Positions 1,502 to 33,429 of a stretch of 33,716 nt of DNA are shown piece by piece. Every line of letters begins with the position of its first letter. Within the stretch, counting starts at the first letter, position 1. A program made the position numbers and the translations under genes. The notes under the pieces were generated by a model. The model saw nothing but the letters and a program-made list of their open reading frames with translations. It was not told the origin of the DNA and searched no databases. The stretch comes from Mytilinidion resinicola (Eukaryota > Ascomycota > Dothideomycetes > Mytilinidiales > Mytilinidiaceae): positions 992,446 to 1,026,161 of the forward strand of contig NW_022985445.1 in assembly GCF_010093595.1 (NCBI RefSeq), written 5' to 3'.

Positions 1502-2824
1502 ATGGCTCCCCGACACACATGCGCCGTCTGCGGGTCGCGGAAAGTCCGCGAGGCTTTCCCTCGGGGTATGTCAGGCAGTCGGGTCACCGCGACATGCAGT
1601 GAATGTCTTGGCCAGACTCTGCGGGACGACGAGGCTTGGACCGGTCTTGGGTTGCGCGCCGACCAAAACACCCAGGAGGGCGACCAATCCGCAGGTATCG
1701 CTGACAACCAAGACGGCGGAGAGGCGCCTGATATCAATCCCACCGTGGCTGAGCCTACGAGGAAGCGCAAACGCCGAAACCCGACAGGTTACCCGCCTAC
1801 CAAACGTCGCAAGCAGCCCAAGGAACCCAAACCTCCTCCACCGCTATCGGCAACCTGCCGCATCTGTGTGGAAGAAAAGGAAGTTAGCGAGTTTGTCAAG
1901 AATGCGCGGAGCCGCAGGTTATCGACGGCCCTCCCCTTTGAGTGCATGGCCCATCTAAGCCACAGGCTGAACGGCCTCCCCAACAAGGCCGGTGGTGCTG
2001 TTTGCAAGAGCTGCATCGGCAACTCACTGGCTGCTGGTCTTGAGAGCACTGGCGCTGAGAACCTAGGCTGTCTGGAACCCGATTGCGATGCCGGCCCCTG
2101 GAGCTACGACTACATCAACCAGTACATGCCGGTGGAGGCCCTGGAAAACTACCACGAGCAGATGTTCACGATGTTCATGGCCACCGCGTCTACCTTCAAG
2201 TGCCTGAACGCCACATGTGGTGCTGTTGGACTCTTGGAGCAGACGGCCCCTGGCTTCCCGAATGTTGTCTGCTCTGCGTGCAGCCATCGTCATTGCGCGC
2301 TATGCGGGGTGGACTGGCATGAGGGTATCTCGTGCCAGGCATACCGTGCCAAGAACCACAAGGAACTGATCACCGCTGAAGAAAAGGCTGCTCTAAGGAT
2401 GCTCAGTAAGATGGGAGCGAAGCGTTGCCCGCGCTGTCAGCTGGCTATTCACAAAGATGGAGGATGTAACTCAATGTATTGTAAGCACTTATTCACCCTT
2501 TTCTTGCTGTCTTAAGGGGACTTGATCGGTGATGCTAATGAAGACATCATAGGCATCAACTGCAAGCGATACTTTGACTGGAACACGGCCGAGCCTGTCC
2601 TCGGGGTGAGCAAGAAGGCGGCGCCGCTCAAACAGCAGCTCGATTACTGGCAGGAGGTCTGCGAAGCTGATGCCCTGGCTGCTCCTCCGGTTCCTCCTCC
2701 TGTCCATCCTCCAGTTCCCGCTGGTAACCTATTCGATGCGGGGAACCCCTTCGCTGCTGAATTAGACGTCTTTAGGAATGAGGCTATGCCACTCCCCGAT
2801 GAAGATGACGCAGACCCACTTTAG
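1502..2824 (+). CDS. RBR-type (RING-IBR-RING2) zinc-finger protein, putative E3 ubiquitin ligase
   Basis: Model: exons 1502-2480 and 2553-2824. The intron at 2481-2552 has donor GTAAGC, branch GCTAAT and acceptor ATAG. The product is 416 aa. An N-terminal Cys pair set (C7/C10, C32/C35) may form a small zinc knuckle, followed by a basic, KR-rich segment that could be a nuclear signal. RING1 starts at C119-x2-C122. A well-formed IBR follows (C-x2-C-x4-C-x2-C-x4-H-x4-C pattern). RING2 is C309-x2-C312-x9-C322-x4-C327-x2-C330, where C322 in the DGGCNSM motif aligns with the thioester-forming cysteine of HHARI/Parkin-type ligases. Splicing joins C327 to INCKRYFDW, which supports the intron. The last two RING2 zinc ligands are absent: an aspartate sits where the first of them would be. 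RBR ligases pass ubiquitin through the RING2 cysteine; substrate unknown. The tail is proline-rich then acidic. Confidence 0.85.
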
Positions 2825-14331: not shown

Positions 14332-17219
14332 ATGTCTGGGGCACAATATGCGGAGCGTGGGGGAGCCCTGCGCGCTGCTCAAACCAACCACTTTGACGCA
14401 CCCGCCGATCCTGTCTTCTTCCCTACATCATCTTCTCCCAGACACTTCCGCGTCCCTTCAGGCCACTTCGACCACGACTCGGGCTCCTCGTCCGCCGTCC
14501 AGTCTCTCACCTCGGCCAGCACGCTGGACAGCAAGCTGGATTTTTCACCCTCCGATGCCGCTGCTCGCAAGGGCATGCTCCAAGACAGCTTCTTCCCGAC
14601 CTGGAGCAACGATGCGACCGACGTCAATCTAGACAGCCCGGAGGAGATGCAGAAGAATGACCCTCTAGCCACCCAGATATGGAAACTGTATAGCAAGGCC
14701 AAAACCCAGTTGCCCAACGCGGAGCGCATGGAAAATCTGACCTGGCGAATGATGGCCATGAGCATGAAGCGCGCTGAGCTGGATCGCAGAGGGTTCGTCC
14801 GCCTGACCCAGCAGCTATTTGCGATTTGAGCCCAGGGCCATGTTAACAGCAGTGCTCCAGGTTGTCGCGATCCAACTCCTCATTCATACCCTCCTCGAGC
14901 TCCATGTCGGCGCCCAGCGGCATTGCGCAGCTGCGGAAATCCGTCGACCAGCAGGCGCACGTCCAGGCGCAGCAGCCTCAGGCCGACGCGATGAATCTGG
15001 ACGATTTTATATTCCCTTCGTCGGTTGCGTCGCCCGCGGGTTTATCTCCGTCGCCGTCGAATGAACGCACAGCCTCGTCCAATACTACTGCACCGGGCAT
15101 ACCGATAAGGAAGACTAGCCAGATGGGCGATCAAAACCACCACCTCGCCCGCGCATCAGCCCCATCTGTTCCCCCAACCATCTCGAGAGAGCACGACTTT
15201 GAATACATCCAACGGCACGTGCGCAAGACAAGTATCGATGAACGACGGGTAAGTAAATGCCTTGTTCGGCGCCCTGCTGCCCTCTCAGTCCTTATCTAAC
15301 AGCACCAGCCTCGCAAGCGACCAGCGGAGAACTCCCCACAGGTTCCCGCCGTTAACAGCATCATGATACCCAATGAGCCCGAAGCAGACGCGGCTCTCCA
15401 TCACTATACCCTAGACCAGCCAATGCATCCCCCCACCTTCCAGCATCACGGCTCTCAGCCACAGGTACCCTACTCTATCGACAACTTCCAACTGCAAGAC
15501 GATCCCATTATTAGCTCCGCTGGCCCGTTCCAGCAGCAGTTCACCTTCTCTCCTGTTGGCTCGCCTATGATGGCCCAAGGTGGCCCATACTCTGCCATGT
15601 ACAACCCTAATTCAATGGGCTCTTCACTAAATTCCGCCGACTACTACTCCCCTCCTGGCTCCGCCTACCCATCCACCGTGTCGACGCCGCAGCCAATGGC
15701 CGAAGGCGATGGCCAGATGTACTTCGATCGCACTGGCATGGACATTCGCCAACCACACGGTCTACCAAGCCAATACGGACCGCATCGACCCTCGGGTCTA
15801 TCCAACGCGATGCAGCCACAGTACATCTTCAACCCAAGCGGCGAGTCTATCTTCAGTGCTGTCACCAGCGCTGCGCCGCCTACGCCATTCTCGTCGGCTC
15901 CCGCCTTCCATCAACCAAACCATGTTGACCCGTCGCAAGTCCTTCACCAAGACTTCCCGTCGCGGTCGGATACGCTCCAGAGCTCTCGGCAGGATAACAT
16001 GTTTTCGTTCGGAGCTGATTCTGACAACGAGGACGATGAGGGTGGTGCATTCCCCGACCGTACCATGCCCATGCAAGCCGAGTATTCTCCCATGGACGAA
16101 GGGCCGTTAGACTTTAGCAATGGCTTCCAGTGGGAGACTAGTCTGTCGAACCAATTCAACCCTGTCCCGGCTCGCTACCCGGCGGGGCCCCCACGCAAGC
16201 AGGTTACCATTGGGCCAACGGAAATGGTGCCTTCACCGCAAGATCATTGGAGCCCGGGAGGCAGCCTTGGCCGTACACATGGCTCTGCCGCGTCAGTCAG
16301 CGACATCCGCAATCGTGGCAACGACCCTAGACGGCAGAAAATACCCCGCACCAGTTCCACTCCTAACACTGCCGGCCTCGCGCACCCGCAAGCAATGCAT
16401 GGCCGGCCGCAGTCATCGCCGAGCTCACCACCAGAATCCGGCTTCAGTTCCGCGGCACCTTCGCGGCCTACCAGTCCGGGTGGAACCAAACAGGGTGACC
16501 AGAACGGGGTGCCGACGACGTGCACGAATTGCTTCACCCAGACTACCCCGTTATGGCGGCGAAACCCCGAAGGGCATCCCCTGTGCAATGCGTGCGGTTT
16601 GTTCTTGAAGCTGCATGGTGTTGTGCGGCCACTATCGTTGAAGACGGATGTCATCAAGAAGCGTAATAGAGGAAGCGGCAATACCGTCCCCGTCGGCACA
16701 GCATCAACACGCTCGTCCAAGAAGGCATCGCGCAAAAACTCCCTTGCACAGACGCCGGTCACCACTCCCACATCTGCAAAAGCTAGTGGCGGTGATTCAG
16801 AGTCGCCCAAGTCTACAGGGTCTGTCAGCGGCGGAAACTCGGCTCCAAATGCCTTAGGCATGTCTGGTGGCGCCGCAGGAGTCAACAAGAGTGGCGTGGT
16901 CCCAATCGCCCCAGGGCCGCCGAAACAGCAGAGCGCCGGGTCAGGTTCTAACCAAAACCGCAGTGGCAATGCTCCTCCAAAGCGGGCACGTCGGCCAAGC
17001 AAGTCTGGCATGATGGAATTCGAGATGGGCGACGCCGACGACACCAGTGGAAAGGCACTGGCACCGCCGACGGCGCGGAAGAAGGAGCCGGCGCCAATGA
17101 TCCCGCCCGGTATGGGCTCCCAGAACATGGGCAGTCTGCCGATGGGTGCTATGGGACAGGGTCTCGCAGCAGGAGTCAGCGGGCCCCAGGAATGGGAATG
17201 GCTCACAATGAGCTTGTGA
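14332..17219 (+). CDS. areA: AreA/NIT2 GATA-type nitrogen catabolite regulator
   Basis: Exons 14332-14792, 14861-15248 and 15309-17219 give 919 aa, close to A. nidulans AreA. Residues about 108-143 ([20 protein letters not shown] through [11 protein letters not shown]) form the conserved N-terminal DUF1752 block. The single GATA finger is C688-x2-C691-x17-C709-x2-C712 with [10 protein letters not shown] and [13 protein letters not shown], followed by the basic tail. The very C-terminus, EWEWLTMSL, matches the AreA end that contacts the co-repressor NmrA. Between them lie long Pro/Ser/Gln-rich disordered segments and an acidic patch ([10 protein letters not shown]). It activates genes for secondary nitrogen sources when ammonium or glutamine is scarce. 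Intron 1 has the unusual donor GTTCGT; intron 2 is canonical (GTAAGT) and restores [20 protein letters not shown]. Two AG sites 6 nt apart at the end of intron 2 could add two residues (HQ). The start is the first ATG before conserved sequence. Confidence 0.95.
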
Positions 17220-22942: not shown

Positions 22943-24028
22943 TCAATCCTCCTCCGTCAAATTCACACACTCCACCTCCTTCTCCGACCCTCTTCCTTCT
23001 CTCTCCCAAAAGCCCCTCAAAGCCCCATACCCAACCCCCCTCCTCATCCCCGTCCCCTCGTCCCAACTCGAATGCAACCCCACCAATCCCCCCGTCTTCG
23101 TCTCCACCAACGGCGCCCCTGAATGGCCCCAATACGTCCAGCAATCATGCATCAGCGCCCCAATCTCCTCATTATCCTCCACATCCTGCCCCGCCGCATA
23201 CCCCCGCCACGCCCCGTGGCTGACATGCAGCACGTCGTACCCCGTCGCCACGCCGCTCACAGCGGCTTCGAGGTCTTCGCTGCCCGGGTGGCCGATGCAG
23301 AGTAGCTGCGCGCCCGTTTGCGGCTCCGCGGAAGCAAACTCGATGTACGGGAACAGGTTTGGAGAACCAGGGCTCGGGGTAGAGGCGGCGACGATTCTTA
23401 ACATCGCGAGATCGCGGCGGGCGTCGAAGGCGATGCAGCGCGCTTCTACGACGCGGCCGCTGGAGAAGAGCAGCCAGTGGCGTGCCGAGAGGTCGAGTTC
23501 TTCTGCGTTCTCAGCGACGCAATGCGCGCATGTGAGGAGGATGCCGCTGGGGTGGATGCAGACGGCTGTGCCAGCGGCTTCTTGGGCGAATACGAGGGTG
23601 GCGGAGATGGCGGCGAGGAGGGGGGCGCTGGGGGAGACGGGGTTGGTGCGTTGGCGGGTTGGCTTCTTGGGGGGGAGGGTGGCGGAGGCGAGGCGGTGTT
23701 GGGTGGATGGGGAGGTCAGAAGGGCGCGTTTTTGGAGGAGAAGAGCTTGGGCAGGGGTGGGGAGGCCGGTTGTGGTGGTTGTCAGGGTGGAGAGGGGGGT
23801 GATGAGGGTGATGGGGATGGCTGGGGTTGTAGATGGTTGGAGCTCGGATAGGAGACCTGGAATTGACGTCGAGGCTGATTGAGATGGGGTGGGTTCTTTG
23901 CTCTTGCTTTGCTCATCTTGCTCTTTCCGAGACCGTGATCTGGTTCGTCGTTGTGTGGGCTCTGGTGGTGCTAGGGCTGGGGAGGTAGCTGTGTGTTTCT
24001 GGCGGCGAGCTGGGGCTTTAGGCCCCAT
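22943..24028 (-). CDS. Intracellular trypsin-like serine protease (S1/HtrA-type fold)
   Basis: Intronless, 361 aa from the minus-strand ATG at 24028. The catalytic triad is visible: H169 in LLTCAHCVAE, D206 in DARRDLAML and S303 in WGHSGAPLVE, matching the trypsin-like peptidase_2 (HtrA-type) pattern. The typical LLCIGHPG segment before the oxyanion region is also present. The N-terminal ~130 residues are low-complexity: a basic block (RRTRSRSRKEQDEQ) that could be a nuclear signal, then a Ser/Thr/Pro stretch. There is no signal peptide and no PDZ domain, so it is unlikely to be a secreted enzyme or a classical HtrA. The frame stays open upstream but without an ATG. Strong GC bias at third positions opens long antisense frames (23295-23882), which I consider spurious. 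Substrate unknown. Confidence 0.82.
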   Translation of the reverse strand: MGPKAPARRQKHTATSPALAPPEPTQRRTRSRSRKEQDEQSKSKEPTPSQSASTSIPGLLSELQPSTTPAIPITLITPLSTLTTTTTGLPTPAQALLLQKRALLTSPSTQHRLASATLPPKKPTRQRTNPVSPSAPLLAAISATLVFAQEAAGTAVCIHPSGILLTCAHCVAENAEELDLSARHWLLFSSGRVVEARCIAFDARRDLAMLRIVAASTPSPGSPNLFPYIEFASAEPQTGAQLLCIGHPGSEDLEAAVSGVATGYDVLHVSHGAWRGYAAGQDVEDNEEIGALMHDCWTYWGHSGAPLVETKTGGLVGLHSSWDEGTGMRRGVGYGALRGFWEREGRGSEKEVECVNLTEED

Positions 24029-24455
24029 TTTTTGGGAGTGGTTAGTATGAAGATGCAAAGAGGAATATATGACGGATCCCTCTTTAGTATGGATACATCT
24101 GATGTGCGTTGCTTCAGGCAACAGTCAGGAAGTGTGCACAGCCACCATACAAGCCTCAAAAGCCAGTAATGGACTAGTATACTAGATAAAACACTAAGGG
24201 CTTAGAATATCGTGATGGCCAGTGTCACATATTAGTTGTTGTTAGACGGCTGCGGAAATTGACTGGAAATTGTGTGCTATATTGATGGTAGCCCACTTTG
24301 GGATGGACTTCTCCCTTGATAAGCCCCTCAAGAACGCCATAAAACTTCAAGTCGTGCCTGACTATGCATCAGGCGGGTAACGCCTGGGTGAGTGCCTCGC
24401 TGGTGCCGGTAACGCCGTGATATGCAATCGTCTAGATGTAAAGAAAGTTCAAACC
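24029..24455. other. Intergenic region between protease and sgf11 genes
   Basis: These 427 bp lie upstream of the protease start and downstream of the sgf11 stop (both minus strand). No gene, RNA or notable repeat was seen. The protease promoter must lie here. Confidence 0.55.
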
Positions 24456-25748
24456 CTAGTTGCCACTGCCACTCGGGGCATTGGACCCAATCTCGCTCAA
24501 AGTGCTGTCCTCTTTACTCAGCGTGAGCTTGAGCTTCTTCCGCGGTGATTCTTCCGCATCGCCATCTCGGTCTCTCTTCCCTTCTCCTCCTGCTTTTGAC
24601 GCCCCAGAACCGCCTTCAGTAGGCTTTGGCAACCTCTTCGCGGCTATCGCTGCCTCCTTCTCTTGTGATTCCTTACTCGCCTTCAGCTTAACCTTCAGCG
24701 TGCCATCCTTGCCTCCTCGATCAGCCTTCTTGACATAGGAGCTCTTCTTCTTCTTTTTCTTCTCCGGCGTCTCATTGTCGTCTCCGTCGTCATCATCGCC
24801 ACCCTTCTTCACCGGGCTGATTCGCTTATCTTTCCCCGCAGCAACGCTCCCTTGTGAAGCCGGCACCGGTGTGCCCATGCGGCTTCCCAGCGGAGTATTT
24901 CCCATCCCACTACCATTCCCATTTTGCCCAGTCAGCTTCGCCATAGCATTCCTCGAGCTCTGACGTCCACTGATACCCAGACACTTCTCCAGATGCTGTG
25001 CGAACCGCGTGATTAGCAAGCTGCGCTTGCAATTGGGACATGTATGCCAGGGGATGTAATGTGCAGGTTTTCCACCGGTGTTCAGCTTGGGTTCAGCGGT
25101 CATGTCTGTGTCCTGTGATCCTGGCGTTCCGACCGACTCCTTGTCCGCATTCTTCAGCTGCTGCTTCTGTAGCTCCCGCTCTTTTTTGCTCTTAGCCATG
25201 TCCGTCGGAAACAGGTTGCCGTACACGTCGTGGCCTGGCCGCTGCACCCACGGATGTAGATTGCAGTATTCCTTGGTCATGTCTGGTGTCTGCGCCCCCT
25301 TACCTGACGCGGGATACTTGAGCCGTGGGAGCTTGCAGTGCGGGCAGATTATCTCCGGGGTTGTTTTTAGTGGATTGCCCTTGAGATGTACTCTGTGCCC
25401 GTCCCAGCTGGCGGCGTCATTGCTGATAGGGGGAGGTGGCGGCGGTGCGTGAGCGTTCTTGGCGGAGGGCTGCGAATCGAGCTGGGCGACGGCGAGGGAT
25501 TCGACTTGGGTGGCGGCCGAGGACATGCGGAGGAGCTTCTCGGAGCGGTGGCAGGACAGGGCGATGCTGGACATGACATCGTAGAGGACATCTTCGAATA
25601 TGTGCTTCGTCTGGCACCAGTTGGGTCAGTATATGGGAGTGGCAGAGCAAGGGAGGTGAACCCATACAACTTCATCCAGGGTTGCCGGCGAGATGTGGAC
25701 GCCAGACTTCAGGAGGTCCTCCAACTCAGCCGGCCCGTCCTCAGACAT
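24456..25748 (-). CDS. sgf11: SAGA deubiquitination-module subunit Sgf11
   Basis: Minus-strand exons 25748-25668 and 25610-24456, with a 57-nt intron (GTATGG, branch ACTGAC, acceptor CCAG). The product is 411 aa. The N-terminal helix, LDEVTKHIFEDVLYDVMSSI and on through CHRSEKLLRM, is completed by splicing and corresponds to the Sgf11 helix that packs on Sus1 and Ubp8. A conserved fungal module follows with C116-x2-C119 and C143-x2-H146 (IICPHCKLPRLKYP, TKEYCNLHPW, PGHDVYGN). The Sgf11-type zinc finger is C218-x2-C221-x11-H233-x3-C237 (CPNCKRSLLITRFAQHLEKC), which in yeast contacts the nucleosome acidic patch and orients Ubp8 for H2B deubiquitination. The C-terminal ~170 residues are Lys/Asp/Ser-rich and disordered, far longer than the 99-residue yeast protein, as in other filamentous fungi. 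Confidence 0.88.
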
Positions 25749-26559: not shown

Positions 26560-28627
26560 TCACCAATCATCCTTTTCGTCCTCATCATCTGCAGGGTATT
26601 AGCATCTTCCCCAAACCAATGAAGAGCATAAAAGGGGGTAGAACTTACCACTATGGCTAACCTTCGCCTTCCTCGCCGCAAGCGCACTAGCCAGTGCTCC
26701 AGCCAGCCCTCCCTCTGCCGCATTCGGAGCAGCTCCACCGGCCGCACCCCCAGTAGCCGCCGGCTCGCTACCGGGCACTAGTGCCGCACTTCGATCCCGC
26801 TTCTCCTGAGAGCTAACTCTCTTGAGCTTAGCGCCGCCGCGGATATCGGCAAGCAGGTTGTCGACGACGGGGGCTCTCTTGGGCAGGCCTTGGGCCGCGG
26901 GCGCGCCGGGCATGGGAGGTGGTGGTGGCGGACCGCTGCCAGGTGGCATCGGTGGCGGGGGAGGCACGGAGGAGTTGGGCATGGGTGGTGGTGGGGGGAC
27001 TGCTGAATGCGGCATAGGGGGGGGAGGCGGGATTGAGCTCGTAGGCATAGGAGGGGGGGGAGGAATCGAGCTCGCAGGCATGGGCGAAGGCGGAGGGATG
27101 TCCCGAGAGGGTGGAGGTGGTGCGTGATTTGATGGCGGAGGAGGTACATGACGAGTAGAGGACGGAGGTAACGGAGGCGGTTGTGGGGCGCCGTGGTTCG
27201 AGGGTGGCAACGGAGGAGGCGCCGAGGATGTCTTTGGAGGCAATGGCGGCGGCGGAATGTGTGCAGGTGGAGTCTGTCGAGCTGGTGGTGGCGGGACATG
27301 TGCTGTTGGAGTCTCCCGAGCAGGTGGTGGGGGAGGAACAGGTCCACGACTTGGCGGAGGGGGTGGGTTTACCGGAGCCCTGGAGCCTGTGAATGGCGGT
27401 GGGACACCAAACCTGTGGCCTGGCTCTGGCGCCTCTTCCATCGGTGTCTTTGGCGGCCTGGGAGGAGGTGGAGGCCCTGGGTTCGTTACTGTATTGGATT
27501 CGGCCCGAGCTCTTGACGGTGGCGGCGGTGCGTTTGTGTGCGCGAATTTGCCAGCATCTGCAATTGGAGGAGGGGCACGGAATTTGGGGCCTGGTGGCGC
27601 GGGAGGAGAGGCCTGGCGAGGTGGAGAGGGCGCCGGACTAGCTGGTGATGCTGCAGCGTCAGTCTTGGTCCTTCGTGCTGGCGGAGGAGCTGGCGGCGGT
27701 CCTCTTCTCGATGTCGACGATCCCGTGTTTTGCGGACTTAGGGCAGTTGCTTTCATGGGCGGTGCACTTGGTGGTGGAGGCGGTGGAGCCCTTGATCGTC
27801 GTTCCGCAGCACTCTCTTCCACATTCTCTTGCGCCTTCCGCTGCTCAATGTACATTTTGATGAAGTCCGCATTGTCCTCAATCTGGTCCTCTGTGATGCC
27901 CATTGCCAGTAGTTCCTTCACCAAAGTAGGATCCGTGGTGTCGATTGCTGAGTTACGGCTGCTTGCAGCGTTCGAGTGGGTATGCTGAGTAGGAGAGGTA
28001 ACGGTCATTTCCCTGGGTGGTATAATCGACTGTGCTGGAGGATGATGCGAAGCGGACGAATGTCTGTGGCCAAACAGACCACCCAGAAGGCCGTGTGACT
28101 TCCCTCCGCCGCTTCCACCTCCATTCGAGGCCGCAGTATTCATAGCAGACCCAAACGGCTTCGACTTAGTGTTCTTGTGCGCATTCTTCTCCCGATCATC
28201 CATCTTCTTCTTGAACGTTTTTGCCTCCTTCTCGTCCGCAAATGACAGTCCCGCAAGGCAATCCTCCAGCTCAAAAGTGTGGAAGAACGTGCGGTCCTGG
28301 TTATAGGAGAAGGTGTCGTAGATTTCTTGGTCCCAGATCACTCCGCGGTTGGCAGGCTGGGGCTATCAGCACATACACGTCTTGCGATGCAGAGCATACA
28401 ATTGCTCGTCAACCTACCGAGACATCAACCATCTTGATCCAAAAAGTGTTCCCGACCAAGTCGTTCGCTAGTACTGCTGCTCCCTGCAGCCCTGTGAAGG
28501 TCCATCTTTGCTGGTTCGGATAGGCGACATAGAGCTTCGCAACGGCAACGGCATGGATCTTGTTCGAGGCTTTGGGTACAGTTCGCTTCACCGTCTGCTT
28601 ATCGTCGTCATTGAGAATCGAAGGCAT
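26560..28627 (-). CDS. las17: WASP family actin nucleation-promoting factor (Las17/Wsp1)
   Basis: Minus-strand exons 28627-28418, 28356-26649 and 26588-26560, with introns of 61 and 60 nt (branches GCTGAT and GCTAAT). The product is 648 aa, the same scale as yeast Las17. The WH1 domain (about residues 15-125) spans the first junction: LVGNTFWIKMVDVS joins PANRGVIWDQEIYDTF, then YNQDRTFFHTFELEDCLAG. A very long proline-rich region (about 190-545) carries many poly-Pro tracts for SH3 proteins and profilin. A WH2/verprolin motif follows (VVDNLLADIRGGAKLKRV, about 566-583), then an Ala-rich central helix. The 29-nt last exon supplies the acidic end DDEDEKDDW with the terminal tryptophan that contacts Arp2/3. 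It promotes Arp2/3-driven actin patches in endocytosis. Missing the tiny last exon would replace the acidic end by an unrelated tail, so the splice is decisive. Confidence 0.92.
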
Positions 28628-29940: not shown

Positions 29941-30879
29941 TTACTCGACCTCCCCCTTCGACTCAAAGTTCTCGCCCTCGACCAGCTCCGGGATGTCGTC
30001 GTCATCTTCATCTTCGCCCTTCTCGCCATCCTCGCCCTTCTCCTTCTGCATGCTCTGGTAGCTCTCGGCGAGCTTGCGCAGCGACGCCAGCGAGTCCGGC
30101 CCCAGTTGGTTGAGGATGCCGGGGACGAGCTCCGTGAGCTCCTTATCTTCGCCTTGGCCGTAGATGGCAAAGGTGTTTGCGGGGACGGAGGCATGGACTG
30201 TGGTTGATAGAAATTAGCAACCCATGATGCTGAAAGCGGCCACCGTATGTCGGCATGGATGAAAATGAAGACATCAACCCGCGGCTCTCTCCAAAAATTC
30301 CCTTTCAAGCCACAGACAGCCCAGCCAGTCTCGGACTTTTCCCGAGCAGATGTAGGAGAAGAATCAGACTAACCCTTTGGCGCAGAGAAATGGATGACAT
30401 TCCCGTCGCTTTTGAACATGTTCACCTCCTCAATCGCCTGAATCGGCTGCACATTCAGCTTCTTCAAGCTCGTCTGCAGCTTCTTGTCGTCGGTGCCAGC
30501 GCTCTTGTGGACCTTCTTGACCTTCCGGCGCGGGGTGCCTTTTCCTCTGTACGCCGGTTCCGTTAGCCATCTGTACTCTTCGCTCTATCTGCTGCCTCAA
30601 ACTCTTCGCTCCGGTATAGAACCCAAAACCGCAACTGCAATTTTTCCAGGATCGCAAGGGTATGTAAAGAGTCGGAGGCGGGGATTCGAGGGGATTCGCG
30701 ACGAAGATTCGAGGCTACGGAGTGGAAGAGCTGCTTACCCTAGTCACTCGTATTAGCATCGTTCATCTCTAGAAGCTCTCAGAAACAGCTCTAGAACTCC
30801 ATCGAGATGATGAAATCTTGGGCTTAAACTCACCAATTCGCACCGACGCCTGCATCCGCGCCAGCTTGGCCTGATCCAT
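29941..30879 (-). CDS. egd1: Nascent polypeptide-associated complex subunit beta (NAC-beta, Egd1/BTF3)
   Basis: Minus-strand exons 30879-30834, a single nucleotide at 30739, 30546-30374 and 30197-29941. Total 477 nt, 158 aa. Exon 1 encodes [15 protein letters not shown] and leaves one G. The next conserved residues, [12 protein letters not shown], need exactly one more nucleotide before exon 3, supplied by the G between acceptor GACTAG and donor GTAAGC. Introns are 94, 192 and 176 nt with branch sites GCTAAT, GCTAAC and GCTAAT. The NAC domain (about 34-99) includes [18 protein letters not shown], then [20 protein letters not shown] across junction 3. [20 protein letters not shown] and an acidic tail ending [10 protein letters not shown] complete the family. 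NAC-beta pairs with alpha, binds ribosomes near the exit tunnel through its basic N-terminus and shields nascent chains. Apart from the 1-nt exon the gene is ordinary. Confidence 0.93.
30739..30739 (-). other. egd1: Predicted single-nucleotide exon (G) of egd1
   Basis: Reading the minus strand: branch GCTAAT, acceptor GACTAG, one G, then donor GTAAGC. Without this G the joined exons total 476 nt and shift frame before GKGTPRRK. With it, the conserved [11 protein letters not shown] is produced. It can equally be described as a tandem intron in which removal of the first intron (30833-30740) creates ATTGG/GTAAGC for the second (30738-30547). Confidence 0.75.
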
Positions 30880-31788
30880 ATTTGCGGTTGATGAAGAAAA
30901 GAAGGGTTGGAGGAGCTGCGCCGTGGTAGAGGATTAGCGGGATGTCTGGAGGCGCTTCTCGGGTATGAATCGAGTGGCTGCAAGGAAGGGAAAGGGCGGT
31001 GAGGCGTACCTTGAGAGTTGCAGGATGGAGAGGCGGGCGGGCAGTGCGAAATGGTGAGGTTGGTTCGTGATGATCGGCCTTCGGCTGCCGGGCCACACAG
31101 TTTGTGTGCTCCAACTCGCTAAAATTCCAGCATTCACAGGTTATCACTTCACATAACTTGCGACGGCAGGTTGTTTGTGAGACTATTGCATTAGATACCA
31201 GGCCGTCTGTTGTTCTGACTTATTCCGAAGACTGGCTTTCCATTTCTGAGAGGCAAAAAGACGTGGGATTCTAGAGCTAGAGGGAATACAGATTTTGTCT
31301 TGGCACACCTACACATTTTCGAGGCGTAAGGAGAGTAACTTTTCTGAACATGCTGTTAGCTCGCTGAGTTACCTCAGACGGCGATTATTCCATGTCAAAT
31401 CATAAGTGCATGTGGTTAAACTATACTGCAGAACACCCTGTTTCTACAAAGACAAAATCTCGTGTTTAGGAGTTTCTGTATTCGTTCTAAACTAAGCATC
31501 GTGCATTGGGATGTCCGCTCCAACAACCCAGCGCCGTGCCATAGCATTGCCAAAAGGCTCAGGACGAAGGCACACAGCAGGGGCCAAAACGGCCCATTCG
31601 AACCTCTGAGGAAAACTCCAAATGCTCCGCACCGGGTATCGTGACCACTATCCGCCCACATCCCCTTTTACATCGCGTCGCTGTCGCTCAAGACATAGTT
31701 GAGCATATTACCACATACCACCAAAGACATATGCCCACATGGGGACTCTATCCGACCACTCCGTGCGCATCCATCGCATCCGTCACGC
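30880..31788. other. Intergenic region between egd1 and the FAD oxidoreductase gene
   Basis: 909 bp with the egd1 promoter and 5' leader and the 3' flank of the oxidoreductase gene. Open frames are short and unrecognised, and no RNA gene or repeat was noted. Confidence 0.5.
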
Positions 31789-32991
31789 TCACTTGAAAGC
31801 CTTGTCCCACTGCTTGCCGCTAACAATTGGGGGCGCCAGGCTGGCAAGATAGTCCTTACCCTTGACGATGGCCACCATCACAGACGGGAGCTTCCAGCCA
31901 CCGAAAGCACCAACCCCCTTGCTCTTGCCGACCGGCACAACCTGGGTCTCGGCGAGATTGGCCTTGTACTCTTTGTCCGGAACCTCAGCACCGCTGAGAT
32001 CCTTCTTCAAGTTGGCCACCACGATCGGGAGTGCTTCCCACATGTCCATAATGCCGCCACGAGTATAGGAGCCACAGTCGCCAAGGACGTAGACACGCTC
32101 GCCGGCAGCGGTCACGCGCAGAGTTTTGTCGCTATCGACGAAGCCCTTTTCGTTGAGGAGAGTTTTCGGGAGGAAACCGGTGTTGGGGCGCGCACCGGTG
32201 GCGTCGACGTAAAGGTCCGCTTCAATGGTCTTGCCGCCGCTGAGCGAGACAGTGGTCTTGCCGTCGGCAGTCTGGGTTGTAGACTCAACGCGGGTGCCGT
32301 AGACCACGTCGCAGCCCATCCTATTGAGGTACTTCTCCGCCGTCTTGGCGAGAGCTTCCCGGAGGACGGGCAGCAGCTTCTTGTCGGCGCAGATGAGGGT
32401 GAGCTGGGCCTTGGGGTGAGCTGGCTTGGCCGGCGCAAACCAGCCTGGCGTGCCGTTGAAGAACTCCGCAATCTCGCCAGCAACCTCGACACCGACAGGT
32501 CCACCACCTCCAATTACGATGGTCTTTGCAGTTGGAAGCGTCTTGCGGAAGTTGTCGAGGTCGGTCTTCACAGCCTCAGAGTCGGTCTGAAGAGACAGGA
32601 AGGGGGCAGGAGTATGGGTGCCAACGGCGAGGATCAGAGCGTAGTATGGAATGGATTCGGTCGCGCCGCCAACAGTAGAGACGGTGACAGTGCGAGCGGC
32701 GGTGTCCAGTGCCGTAGCCGTGCCTTGAACAAATTTGAAGCTGGTGCCATACTTGGCGAACTCTTTCTCGAGGGGGTACAGGTACTTGCTCTCGGGGAGA
32801 AGCTCGCTGGAGATACAGGCACGGGGGCCCGCAACTCGCCAGTAGAAGTCCTTCGAGGGAGTGACCATCGTGACATTGTAGGTGACGCCATCCTCCTTGG
32901 GGAGTGTAGGAAGGATGTGCTTGAGGGAGTAATGGCTGGTGCTGATGCCGGCCCAGCTACCTCCAATCACCAAGACGGTTCGAGCAGACAT
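31789..32991 (-). CDS. AMID/AIFM2-like FAD-dependent pyridine nucleotide oxidoreductase
   Basis: Intronless, 400 aa from the minus-strand ATG at 32991. The N-terminal dinucleotide fold VLVIGGSWAG (residues 6-15) uses Ser at the middle position of GxGxxG, common in this branch. ALILAVGT (118-125) is the ATG-type motif, and TIVIGGGGPVGVEVAG (157-171) is the second Rossmann fold for NAD(P)H. VYVLGDCGS near residue 300 is the FAD-binding GD motif. Length and motif order fit AMID/AIF-homologous proteins, relatives of type II NADH dehydrogenases and FSP1 that reduce quinones or other acceptors with NAD(P)H. No signal peptide, and no clear mitochondrial presequence from this start. The frame stays open upstream to 33168, but without ATG, and a TATA box at 33118-33111 lies inside it, so 32991 is preferred. 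A long antisense open frame overlaps nearly all of it and is considered spurious. Confidence 0.9.
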   Translation of the reverse strand: MSARTVLVIGGSWAGISTSHYSLKHILPTLPKEDGVTYNVTMVTPSKDFYWRVAGPRACISSELLPESKYLYPLEKEFAKYGTSFKFVQGTATALDTAARTVTVSTVGGATESIPYYALILAVGTHTPAPFLSLQTDSEAVKTDLDNFRKTLPTAKTIVIGGGGPVGVEVAGEIAEFFNGTPGWFAPAKPAHPKAQLTLICADKKLLPVLREALAKTAEKYLNRMGCDVVYGTRVESTTQTADGKTTVSLSGGKTIEADLYVDATGARPNTGFLPKTLLNEKGFVDSDKTLRVTAAGERVYVLGDCGSYTRGGIMDMWEALPIVVANLKKDLSGAEVPDKEYKANLAETQVVPVGKSKGVGAFGGWKLPSVMVAIVKGKDYLASLAPPIVSGKQWDKAFK

Positions 32992-33110
32992 GTTGTGCGG
33001 TTGATTGGTGGTAGGTAGTGAGGTTGTAGTCTGGGGCTTGCTGATGCGGTACTGTCGACGGTGGGTGAGGTGAGGAGATTGGTGGTACGGGCAGCGTCTG
33101 TCGGGCGTGC

Positions 33111-33118
33111 CTTTTATA
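33111..33118 (-). promoter_or_regulatory. TATA box of the FAD oxidoreductase gene
   Basis: TATAAAAG on the minus strand, about 120 bp before the start codon at 32991. Spacing leaves a leader of roughly 80-90 nt. It also argues against a coding start upstream of it. Confidence 0.6.
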
Positions 33119-33429
33119 GGTATTAGCGGTGGAGTTGAGAGGGCCCGAAGCGCGGCAGGCAGGATCAACAGATTACGCAGGTCAGCAATAAGGGTGAATC
33201 AGAGAGTTCAATGCCAGGAAAGGGTGGCCTTATAGCTCCTAAAGGATGTTAAGATCAATTCAGCTTACAAGGCAATTCGCAGTGGATTTCCAACGTTTTC
33301 AAGATATTGTTGAAGCTATTGAAGCTTGGGCCGCAGCGGCAGGGATTATCGGATATTTCGAAAGATCCTCTTCCGAAGCCACCAAAGTCGATTACAAAGC
33401 TGACAAACGTAAGTTAACTTAACGTACCC

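Follow-up and report, generated by a model that had tools for sequence, protein, structure and literature searches.

In the accessible sections of the literature cited here, nuclear exons of one nucleotide are described for APC11 (PMC4674806) and VPS55 (PMC8831610) of plants and for CYP621A of Fusarium (PMC12940212). The CYP621A paper, published in 2026 and supported by 18 RNA reads, presents its exon as the first fungal case and, by its own count, the second overall, although the VPS55 exon had already been described in PMC8831610. A mitochondrial one-base exon has been named for cox1 of Placozoa, and single-nucleotide exons are mentioned for fungal mitochondrial genomes. The accessible text of three further papers (PMC10878826; PMC11121469, with a 20-nt fungal microexon; and PMC5913888) has no bearing on NAC-beta, and the literature searched, outside of which most subscription journals lie, yielded no description of a one-base exon in NAC-beta/egd1.

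Here, we describe the NAC-beta gene (egd1) of Mytilinidion resinicola, whose pre-mRNA very probably carries a constitutive one-nucleotide exon, a G at position 30739 of the window. Local signals favour this reading, and relatives back it strongly, if by an indirect route. The window is the whole stretch of DNA that was analysed, 33,716 nucleotides in length (positions 992446-1026161 of its contig), from a genome of 47.1 Mb in 44 contigs. The observation probably goes beyond a single-species oddity and would represent a very rare known kind of exon with unusual breadth.

Each of the described systems resembles this locus in part. As in egd1, the exon of CYP621A is a lone G in the context AG-G-GT between two introns and forms the middle base of a Gly codon within a conserved motif; its omission breaks the frame, and nearly all CYP621A gene models are wrong at this point (PMC12940212). 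However, that exon belongs to one P450 subfamily in one genus and is covered by RNA reads, whereas egd1 encodes a housekeeping ribosome-associated chaperone and its putative exon, read from sequence, would extend over eight classes. The exon of Arabidopsis APC11 is likewise constitutive, but it is a plant exon, consists of base A333 and was demonstrated experimentally (PMC4674806), whereas that of egd1 was read from genomic DNA. VPS55 has a deeply conserved one-base exon that is absent from reference annotations, as egd1 probably does, as well as GTRAGT donors, but it is a case from land plants, where the microexon is included in some forms and missing from others (PMC8831610); no such pair of forms was seen for egd1.

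Two other systems are similar in arrangement rather than in the exon itself. In [D1,2] stwintrons, two abutting canonical introns are successively removed by intron definition, and one-step removal shifts the frame (PMC12403724; PMC9024468; PMC5639578); in them, however, one of the splice sites is split and the introns are not separated by any exon base, whereas egd1 keeps an exon base and has no split site. Ratchet points of Drosophila have a juxtaposed acceptor and donor and are removed stepwise (PMC8605326), a behaviour with which the egd1 sequence is compatible. On the other hand, they occur in long introns, leave a remainder of zero bases and need a cryptic RS-exon (PMC8605326), whereas egd1 has short fungal introns and a one-base remainder.

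The gene lies on the minus strand of the window, and its CDS consists of 477 nt (158 codons and the stop), which on recomputation agreed with the length originally given for its four pieces. Its parts are as follows (all on the minus strand).

30834..30879, minus strand: exon 1, 46 nt, ending CGA ATT G, in which the G is the first base of a Gly codon (phase 1)
30740..30833, minus strand: intron 1, 94 nt, GTGAGT...GACTAG, fitting GURWGY/RYURAY/YAG
30752..30757, minus strand: branch-site-like GCTAAT of intron 1, 12 nt from the end of the motif to the end of the intron
30739..30739, minus strand: one-nucleotide exon G (putative), second base of the Gly codon in RIGGKG
30547..30738, minus strand: intron 2, 192 nt, GTAAGC...GTACAG, fitting GURWGY/RYURAY/YAG
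30562..30567, minus strand: branch-site-like GCTAAC of intron 2, 15 nt from the end of the motif to the end of the intron
30545..30546, minus strand: rival acceptor AG, 2 nt 3' of the CAG acceptor (CAG/AG/GAAAAGG), which with donor 1 alone gives an in-frame RIGKG
30374..30546, minus strand: exon 3, 173 nt, starting with the third base of the Gly codon (A/GGA AAA GGC ACC CCG)
30198..30373, minus strand: intron 3, an ordinary intron of 176 nt, GTTAGT...CACAG, which served as the control junction
29941..30197, minus strand: exon 4 of the spliced CDS, including the stop codon

The motif set GURWGY/RYURAY/YAG is the intron consensus of Aspergillus nidulans (PMC12403724). Direct reading and a script both reproduced the layout that had been proposed for this locus, namely ATT-G before GTGAGT, followed by GCTAAT, GACTAG, the lone G, GTAAGC and GTACAG.

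The product is NAC-beta, as the original prediction had it under the name egd1: it matches human BTF3 (PDB) over nearly its whole length with an E value of 6e-50, NAC-beta names occur among its matches, and full-length homology together with the presence of the RRK..KK region, which we take to be the ribosome-binding region of NAC-beta, places it in the EGD1/BTF3 family. The five best protein matches were 87-92% identical and included sequences from Ophiobolus, Pyrenophora and Polyplosphaeria, presumably all Dothideomycetes. A search of the genome for a second copy of the gene matched exons of its own locus only. Among the neighbouring open reading frames, matches to Pfam were obtained for IBR half RING finger (1502-2515, plus strand), GATA zinc finger (15363-17219, plus), Trypsin_2 peptidase (22943-24121, minus), Sgf11 (24456-25574, minus), WH1 (26599-28341, minus) and pyridine nucleotide-disulphide oxidoreductase (31789-33168, minus). 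An open frame of 439 aa at 31699-33018 on the plus strand, antisense to the oxidoreductase frame and without a Pfam match, is probably a codon-bias shadow.

The lone G stands in TAG-G-GTAAGC and is flanked on both sides by complete introns with donor, branch site and acceptor. It is required for both the reading frame and the conserved protein: with it the product reads RIGGKG, and without it either a stop or an altered motif results. Human BTF3 carries VRIGGKGTARRKKK, that is, RIGGKG with Gly-Gly, so that the conserved string is indeed restored by the extra base. If a single intron runs from GTGAGT to the CAG at 30547, the G is lost and the frameshift that had been foreseen leads to a stop after 42 residues, and if intron 2 is retained, translation ends after 16 aa. 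Single-intron canonical models that keep the frame do exist, and each of them changes the motif: an acceptor 2 nt further on gives 157 aa with RIGKG and one Gly lost, and a first donor shifted by 4 nt (GTGA/GT) gives 159 aa with an added Glu, RIGEGKG. Neither of these two models figured in the original prediction, and both are real rivals. Among the canonical splices examined, the conserved motif results only from the one that includes the G, and the claim that no canonical alternative acceptor preserves both frame and conserved residues still stands.

We also counted two-intron solutions with the outer sites fixed and introns of at least 40 nt. Nine of them were in frame, and a YAG acceptor, a branch site and a strong donor came together only in the solution with the one-base exon. 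A longer internal exon was rejected, each of the eight other in-frame solutions lacking at least one of these three elements. Ribosomal frameshifting on an mRNA without the G was set aside because all 86 transcript-like sequences of relatives described below are open in frame with a clean motif.

In 20,000 dinucleotide shuffles of the 287-nt stretch, the strict motif of a one-base exon ([CTRAY..YAG]-N-[GTRAGY], introns of at least 45 nt) appeared in 9, and a looser consensus in 216. The strict motif occurred once in the window when both strands were searched. Matches to the looser motif were found elsewhere in the window at 176 (plus strand) and 15514 (minus strand). A sample of 200 kb taken elsewhere in the genome did not contain the strict motif; it demonstrates rarity only, since controls with exons of 0, 2, 4, 5 and 7 bases also gave zero.

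With regard to the origin of the two introns, a search for tandem duplication or inverted repeats found only short weak repeats. One of these is an imperfect 18-nt inverted repeat (78%) with arms at 30719-30736 (intron 2) and 30783-30800 (intron 1), which brackets the lone G and could hide the second donor until intron 1 has been removed. The predicted RNA fold of the intron-G-intron complex was not better than that of shuffled sequences (z -0.75). A search for introner-like repeats matched the complex only to itself in the genome, at the sensitivity of that search, and Rfam gave no match in the window.

Comparison with relatives was made at the protein level because protein and alignment-based searches of genome contigs and viral contigs found no relative's DNA. 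Three protein searches, two of whose three queries bore the clean motif, were used to collect the best 120 of 4752, 4709 and 2664 matches, which yielded 247 distinct proteins. Transcript-like status was assigned to 86 of these from labels, short contigs and open frames: their sources are exclusively jgi, lgn, ena or merc, their contigs are 598-5203 nt long or not given, and the whole protein lies in one open frame, in some cases with a translated 5' leader. The other 161 are from genome records (ncbi, nr, uniref), a group in which P0134, known from UniRef only and labelled Photinus pyralis, was kept and counted as clean. P0134 and P0202 (labelled Quercus suber) rank among Pezizomycotina proteins and are probably fungal contamination. 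P0070, the NAC-beta of Chaenotheca, bears the record name 'DnaJ sub B member 9'.

The pattern R/Q-I/T/V-G-G-K/R-G was used to define a clean junction. Among the 247 best listed matches, it was found in 86 of 86 transcript-like proteins vs 28 of 161 genome-record proteins (Fisher 3e-42, a value that ignores shared ancestry). Thus, 133 of the 161 genome-record models deviate at or around the RIG/GKG junction at the protein level. The ordinary junction at intron 3 matches a control pattern in 155 of the 161 models, and among the other six only P0034 has an indel; the control pattern misses natural substitutions, and 10 of the 86 transcript-like sequences fail it as well. Since this control junction is so well preserved, the damage is concentrated at one junction of the gene. 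An alignment of 14 proteins chosen for a clean junction has RIGGKG in 14 of 14 by selection and is not used here as evidence for the motif.

The deviant models comprise 40 with a one-residue insert, 67 with longer inserts, P0224 among them, 9 that lose one Gly, 3 that lose GGK and 14 with other changes, several of the last with a different N-terminus. In the one-residue inserts, which read RIG-X-GKG, X is T in 16, I in 10, D in 7 and E in 2, and N, H, A, S and K occur once each. This is as expected if a donor GTxxGT had been shifted by 4 nt: X would track the donor sequence because it is the codon xx+n of the shifted site, with GTATGT giving I, GTACGT giving T, GTGAGT giving D or E and GTAAGT giving N or K, and 37 of the 40 inserts fall within I/T/D/E/N/K. 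The same 4-nt move of the donor in the M. resinicola gene would yield RIGEGKG. The nine models that lose a Gly fit an acceptor moved by 2 nt, and the three that lose GGK fit one moved by 8 nt. Each of the three readable classes (donor +4, acceptor +2 and acceptor +8) would then correspond to one missing base modulo 3, a count limited to these classes, as longer inserts and other changes are not countable from protein.

Forty-two of the longer inserts start with RIG or RTG, and the next residue is E, M, K or T in 23, which may represent the xxG codon of a donor GTxxG that had been read through, and Y in 14. In 12 of these 14 models V follows Y, and the 12 span ten genera, including Venturia, Pyricularia, Sclerotinia, Monilinia and Emmonsiellopsis. 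RIG/RTG-Y-V is readable as ATT GGG TAY GTN, that is, exon 1, the lone G and run-through of a second donor GTAYGT. However, an unusual first donor GTTAYGT would read alike, and in P0008 and P0136 a lone-G reading of RIG-Y-V would need a 7-nt exon. In the M. resinicola gene, read-through past the lone G meets TAA at once, so that such a form could not be annotated there. GGKG is retained in 11 deviants, and in 9 of them the preceding residue is codable by NYA (L, I, V, S, P, T or A), as would be expected of a spurious exon ending in ..YAGG/GT, an ending that P0045 and P0218 do not fit.

Several pairs of proteins have bodies that are 100% identical and differ at the junction (P0234/P0179, P0166/P0080, P0026/P0011, P0024/P0011 and P0201/P0095); they come from Zymoseptoria brevis/tritici, Aspergillus filifer/venezuelensis, Pseudevernia and Alectoria/Letharia, and Botrytis/Monilinia. 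The transcript-like P0040 matches P0110 of Xylographa at 99.3%, and its junction is clean. Such cases argue that the deviations are a matter of annotation rather than evolution, apparently a database-wide error with one common cause, of which one old one-base exon would be the simplest account.

The first alternative is a single ordinary intron that starts with GTGAGT (30833) and ends with the AG at 30545, without a one-base exon, giving RIGKG and the junction CGAATTG-GAAAAGGC. It would be a canonical GT-AG intron that keeps the frame (157 aa), and its protein outcome is annotated in 9 relatives among the best listed matches. However, it depends on a G-AG acceptor located 2 nt past the CAG acceptor, and the intron of 289 nt would bypass a complete internal array of branch site, acceptor, G and donor. 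It also deletes a glycine that is present in human BTF3 and missing in none of the 86 transcript-like relatives. We therefore regard it as very unlikely.

Another alternative is a single non-canonical intron whose cut has slid by one base (a G/TGAGT donor or a YA/G acceptor) and so keeps an extra G, the identity of the retained base being ambiguous because both ends of the intron carry G. It would likewise give RIGGKG. On the other hand, it needs a non-GT or non-AG boundary though both boundaries fit the consensus, and it explains neither the internal array of splice sites, whose chance occurrence is about 9 in 20,000, nor the relatives with RIG/RTG-Y-V. Such an intron appears highly improbable here.

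Strictly defined, a stwintron consists of an external intron, one splice site of which is broken up by an internal intron. Such an arrangement would also place two adjacent, consecutively removed canonical introns in an ascomycete, and stwintrons have been described from several ascomycetes; it is hardly credible for egd1, because no donor, branch site or acceptor is interrupted and because one-step removal here loses a base, whereas a mis-spliced [D1,2] stwintron ends up with one G extra (PMC12403724). The stwintron-like label of the original prediction was thus not borne out in its strict sense, all six splice and branch sites being uninterrupted in the genomic sequence. A base error in the assembly or a broken gene is barely conceivable: one base missing from exon 1 or exon 3 would give an equal gap in frame, but no second copy was found, the remainder of the gene is intact, the lone G lies between two complete consensus sites, and the junction is likewise broken in the models of many other genomes.

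If the lone G is an exon, the mRNA would contain the junction CGAATTG-G-AGGAAAAGGC. The two introns would then be removed one after the other, since sites one base apart leave hardly any room for U1 and the 3' splice site machinery at the same time. Intron definition is the mode by which ascomycete splice sites pair (PMC12403724) and would presumably operate here, and the authors of the APC11 study judged it very unlikely that a single base is recognised by exon definition and favoured intron definition with recursive splicing (PMC4674806). On paper either order works, because each intron is complete on its own. The upstream intron, being transcribed first, would probably be removed first; the intermediate ATTG-G/GTAAGC would keep an intact donor, whose partners would then be the distal branch site and acceptor. 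The order could also be reversed, as in potato invertase, in which the second intron is removed first (cited in the discussion of PMC4674806).

The lone G would thereby act as ratchet points do in recursive splicing, but with one base left over. Sequential splicing had been proposed for this locus together with the idea that the first excision builds the donor of the second; the former is probably the mechanism, whereas the latter does not hold, because the donor GTAAGC of intron 2 and the acceptor TAG of intron 1 are already intact. Splicing is predicted to fail when the outer sites pair directly, which would give CGAATTG-AGGAAAAGGC with the G dropped, a frameshift and a stop after 42 codons, a form likely to be degraded by NMD.

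Deviant models were found in Dothideomycetes, Eurotiomycetes, Lecanoromycetes, Leotiomycetes, Sordariomycetes, Orbiliomycetes, Sareomycetes and Coniocybomycetes, of which Sareomycetes and Coniocybomycetes are represented by one record each (P0233 and P0070); the class was checked for one example in each of the eight, and the remaining genera are assigned to the classes to which we presume they belong. The three listed Pezizomycetes (P0037, P0048 and P0057; class checked for Wilcoxina) are clean, and the one-base exon may be absent from them. Because the deviant models span eight classes and their readable deviations amount to one missing base, the exon is probably ancient and often misannotated. 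Within Pezizomycotina, it was probably already present in the ancestor shared, at the least, by the orbiliomycete and leotiomyceta lineages. Deep conservation of this kind predicts the arrangement ATTG/GTNNGT ... YAG/G/GTRNGY ... YAG/NGGAAAAGG in relatives, Pezizomycetes perhaps excepted.

A more far-reaching proposal, which we consider doubtful, is that the exon, hundreds of millions of years old if shared by Orbiliomycetes and leotiomyceta, has been kept as a splicing checkpoint that couples the output of NAC-beta to splicing kinetics. The presumed link is that an mRNA spliced directly between the outer sites lacks the base and would be a target of NMD.

If the listed sample is representative, most public genome models of NAC-beta in these fungi bear a false indel near the RRK..KK region, and false indels next to this region mislead structural and evolutionary work. 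The combination of clean transcripts and broken genome models at a fixed junction would be a simple signature for finding more one-base exons. Many genomes and RNA-seq sets exist for filamentous fungi, and egd1 would be a good natural test system for how the spliceosome removes introns one base apart, in which order and with what failure rate. The NAC-beta case would add a housekeeping gene to those with a nuclear one-base exon, and this exon would be more widespread than any other fungal one known to us.
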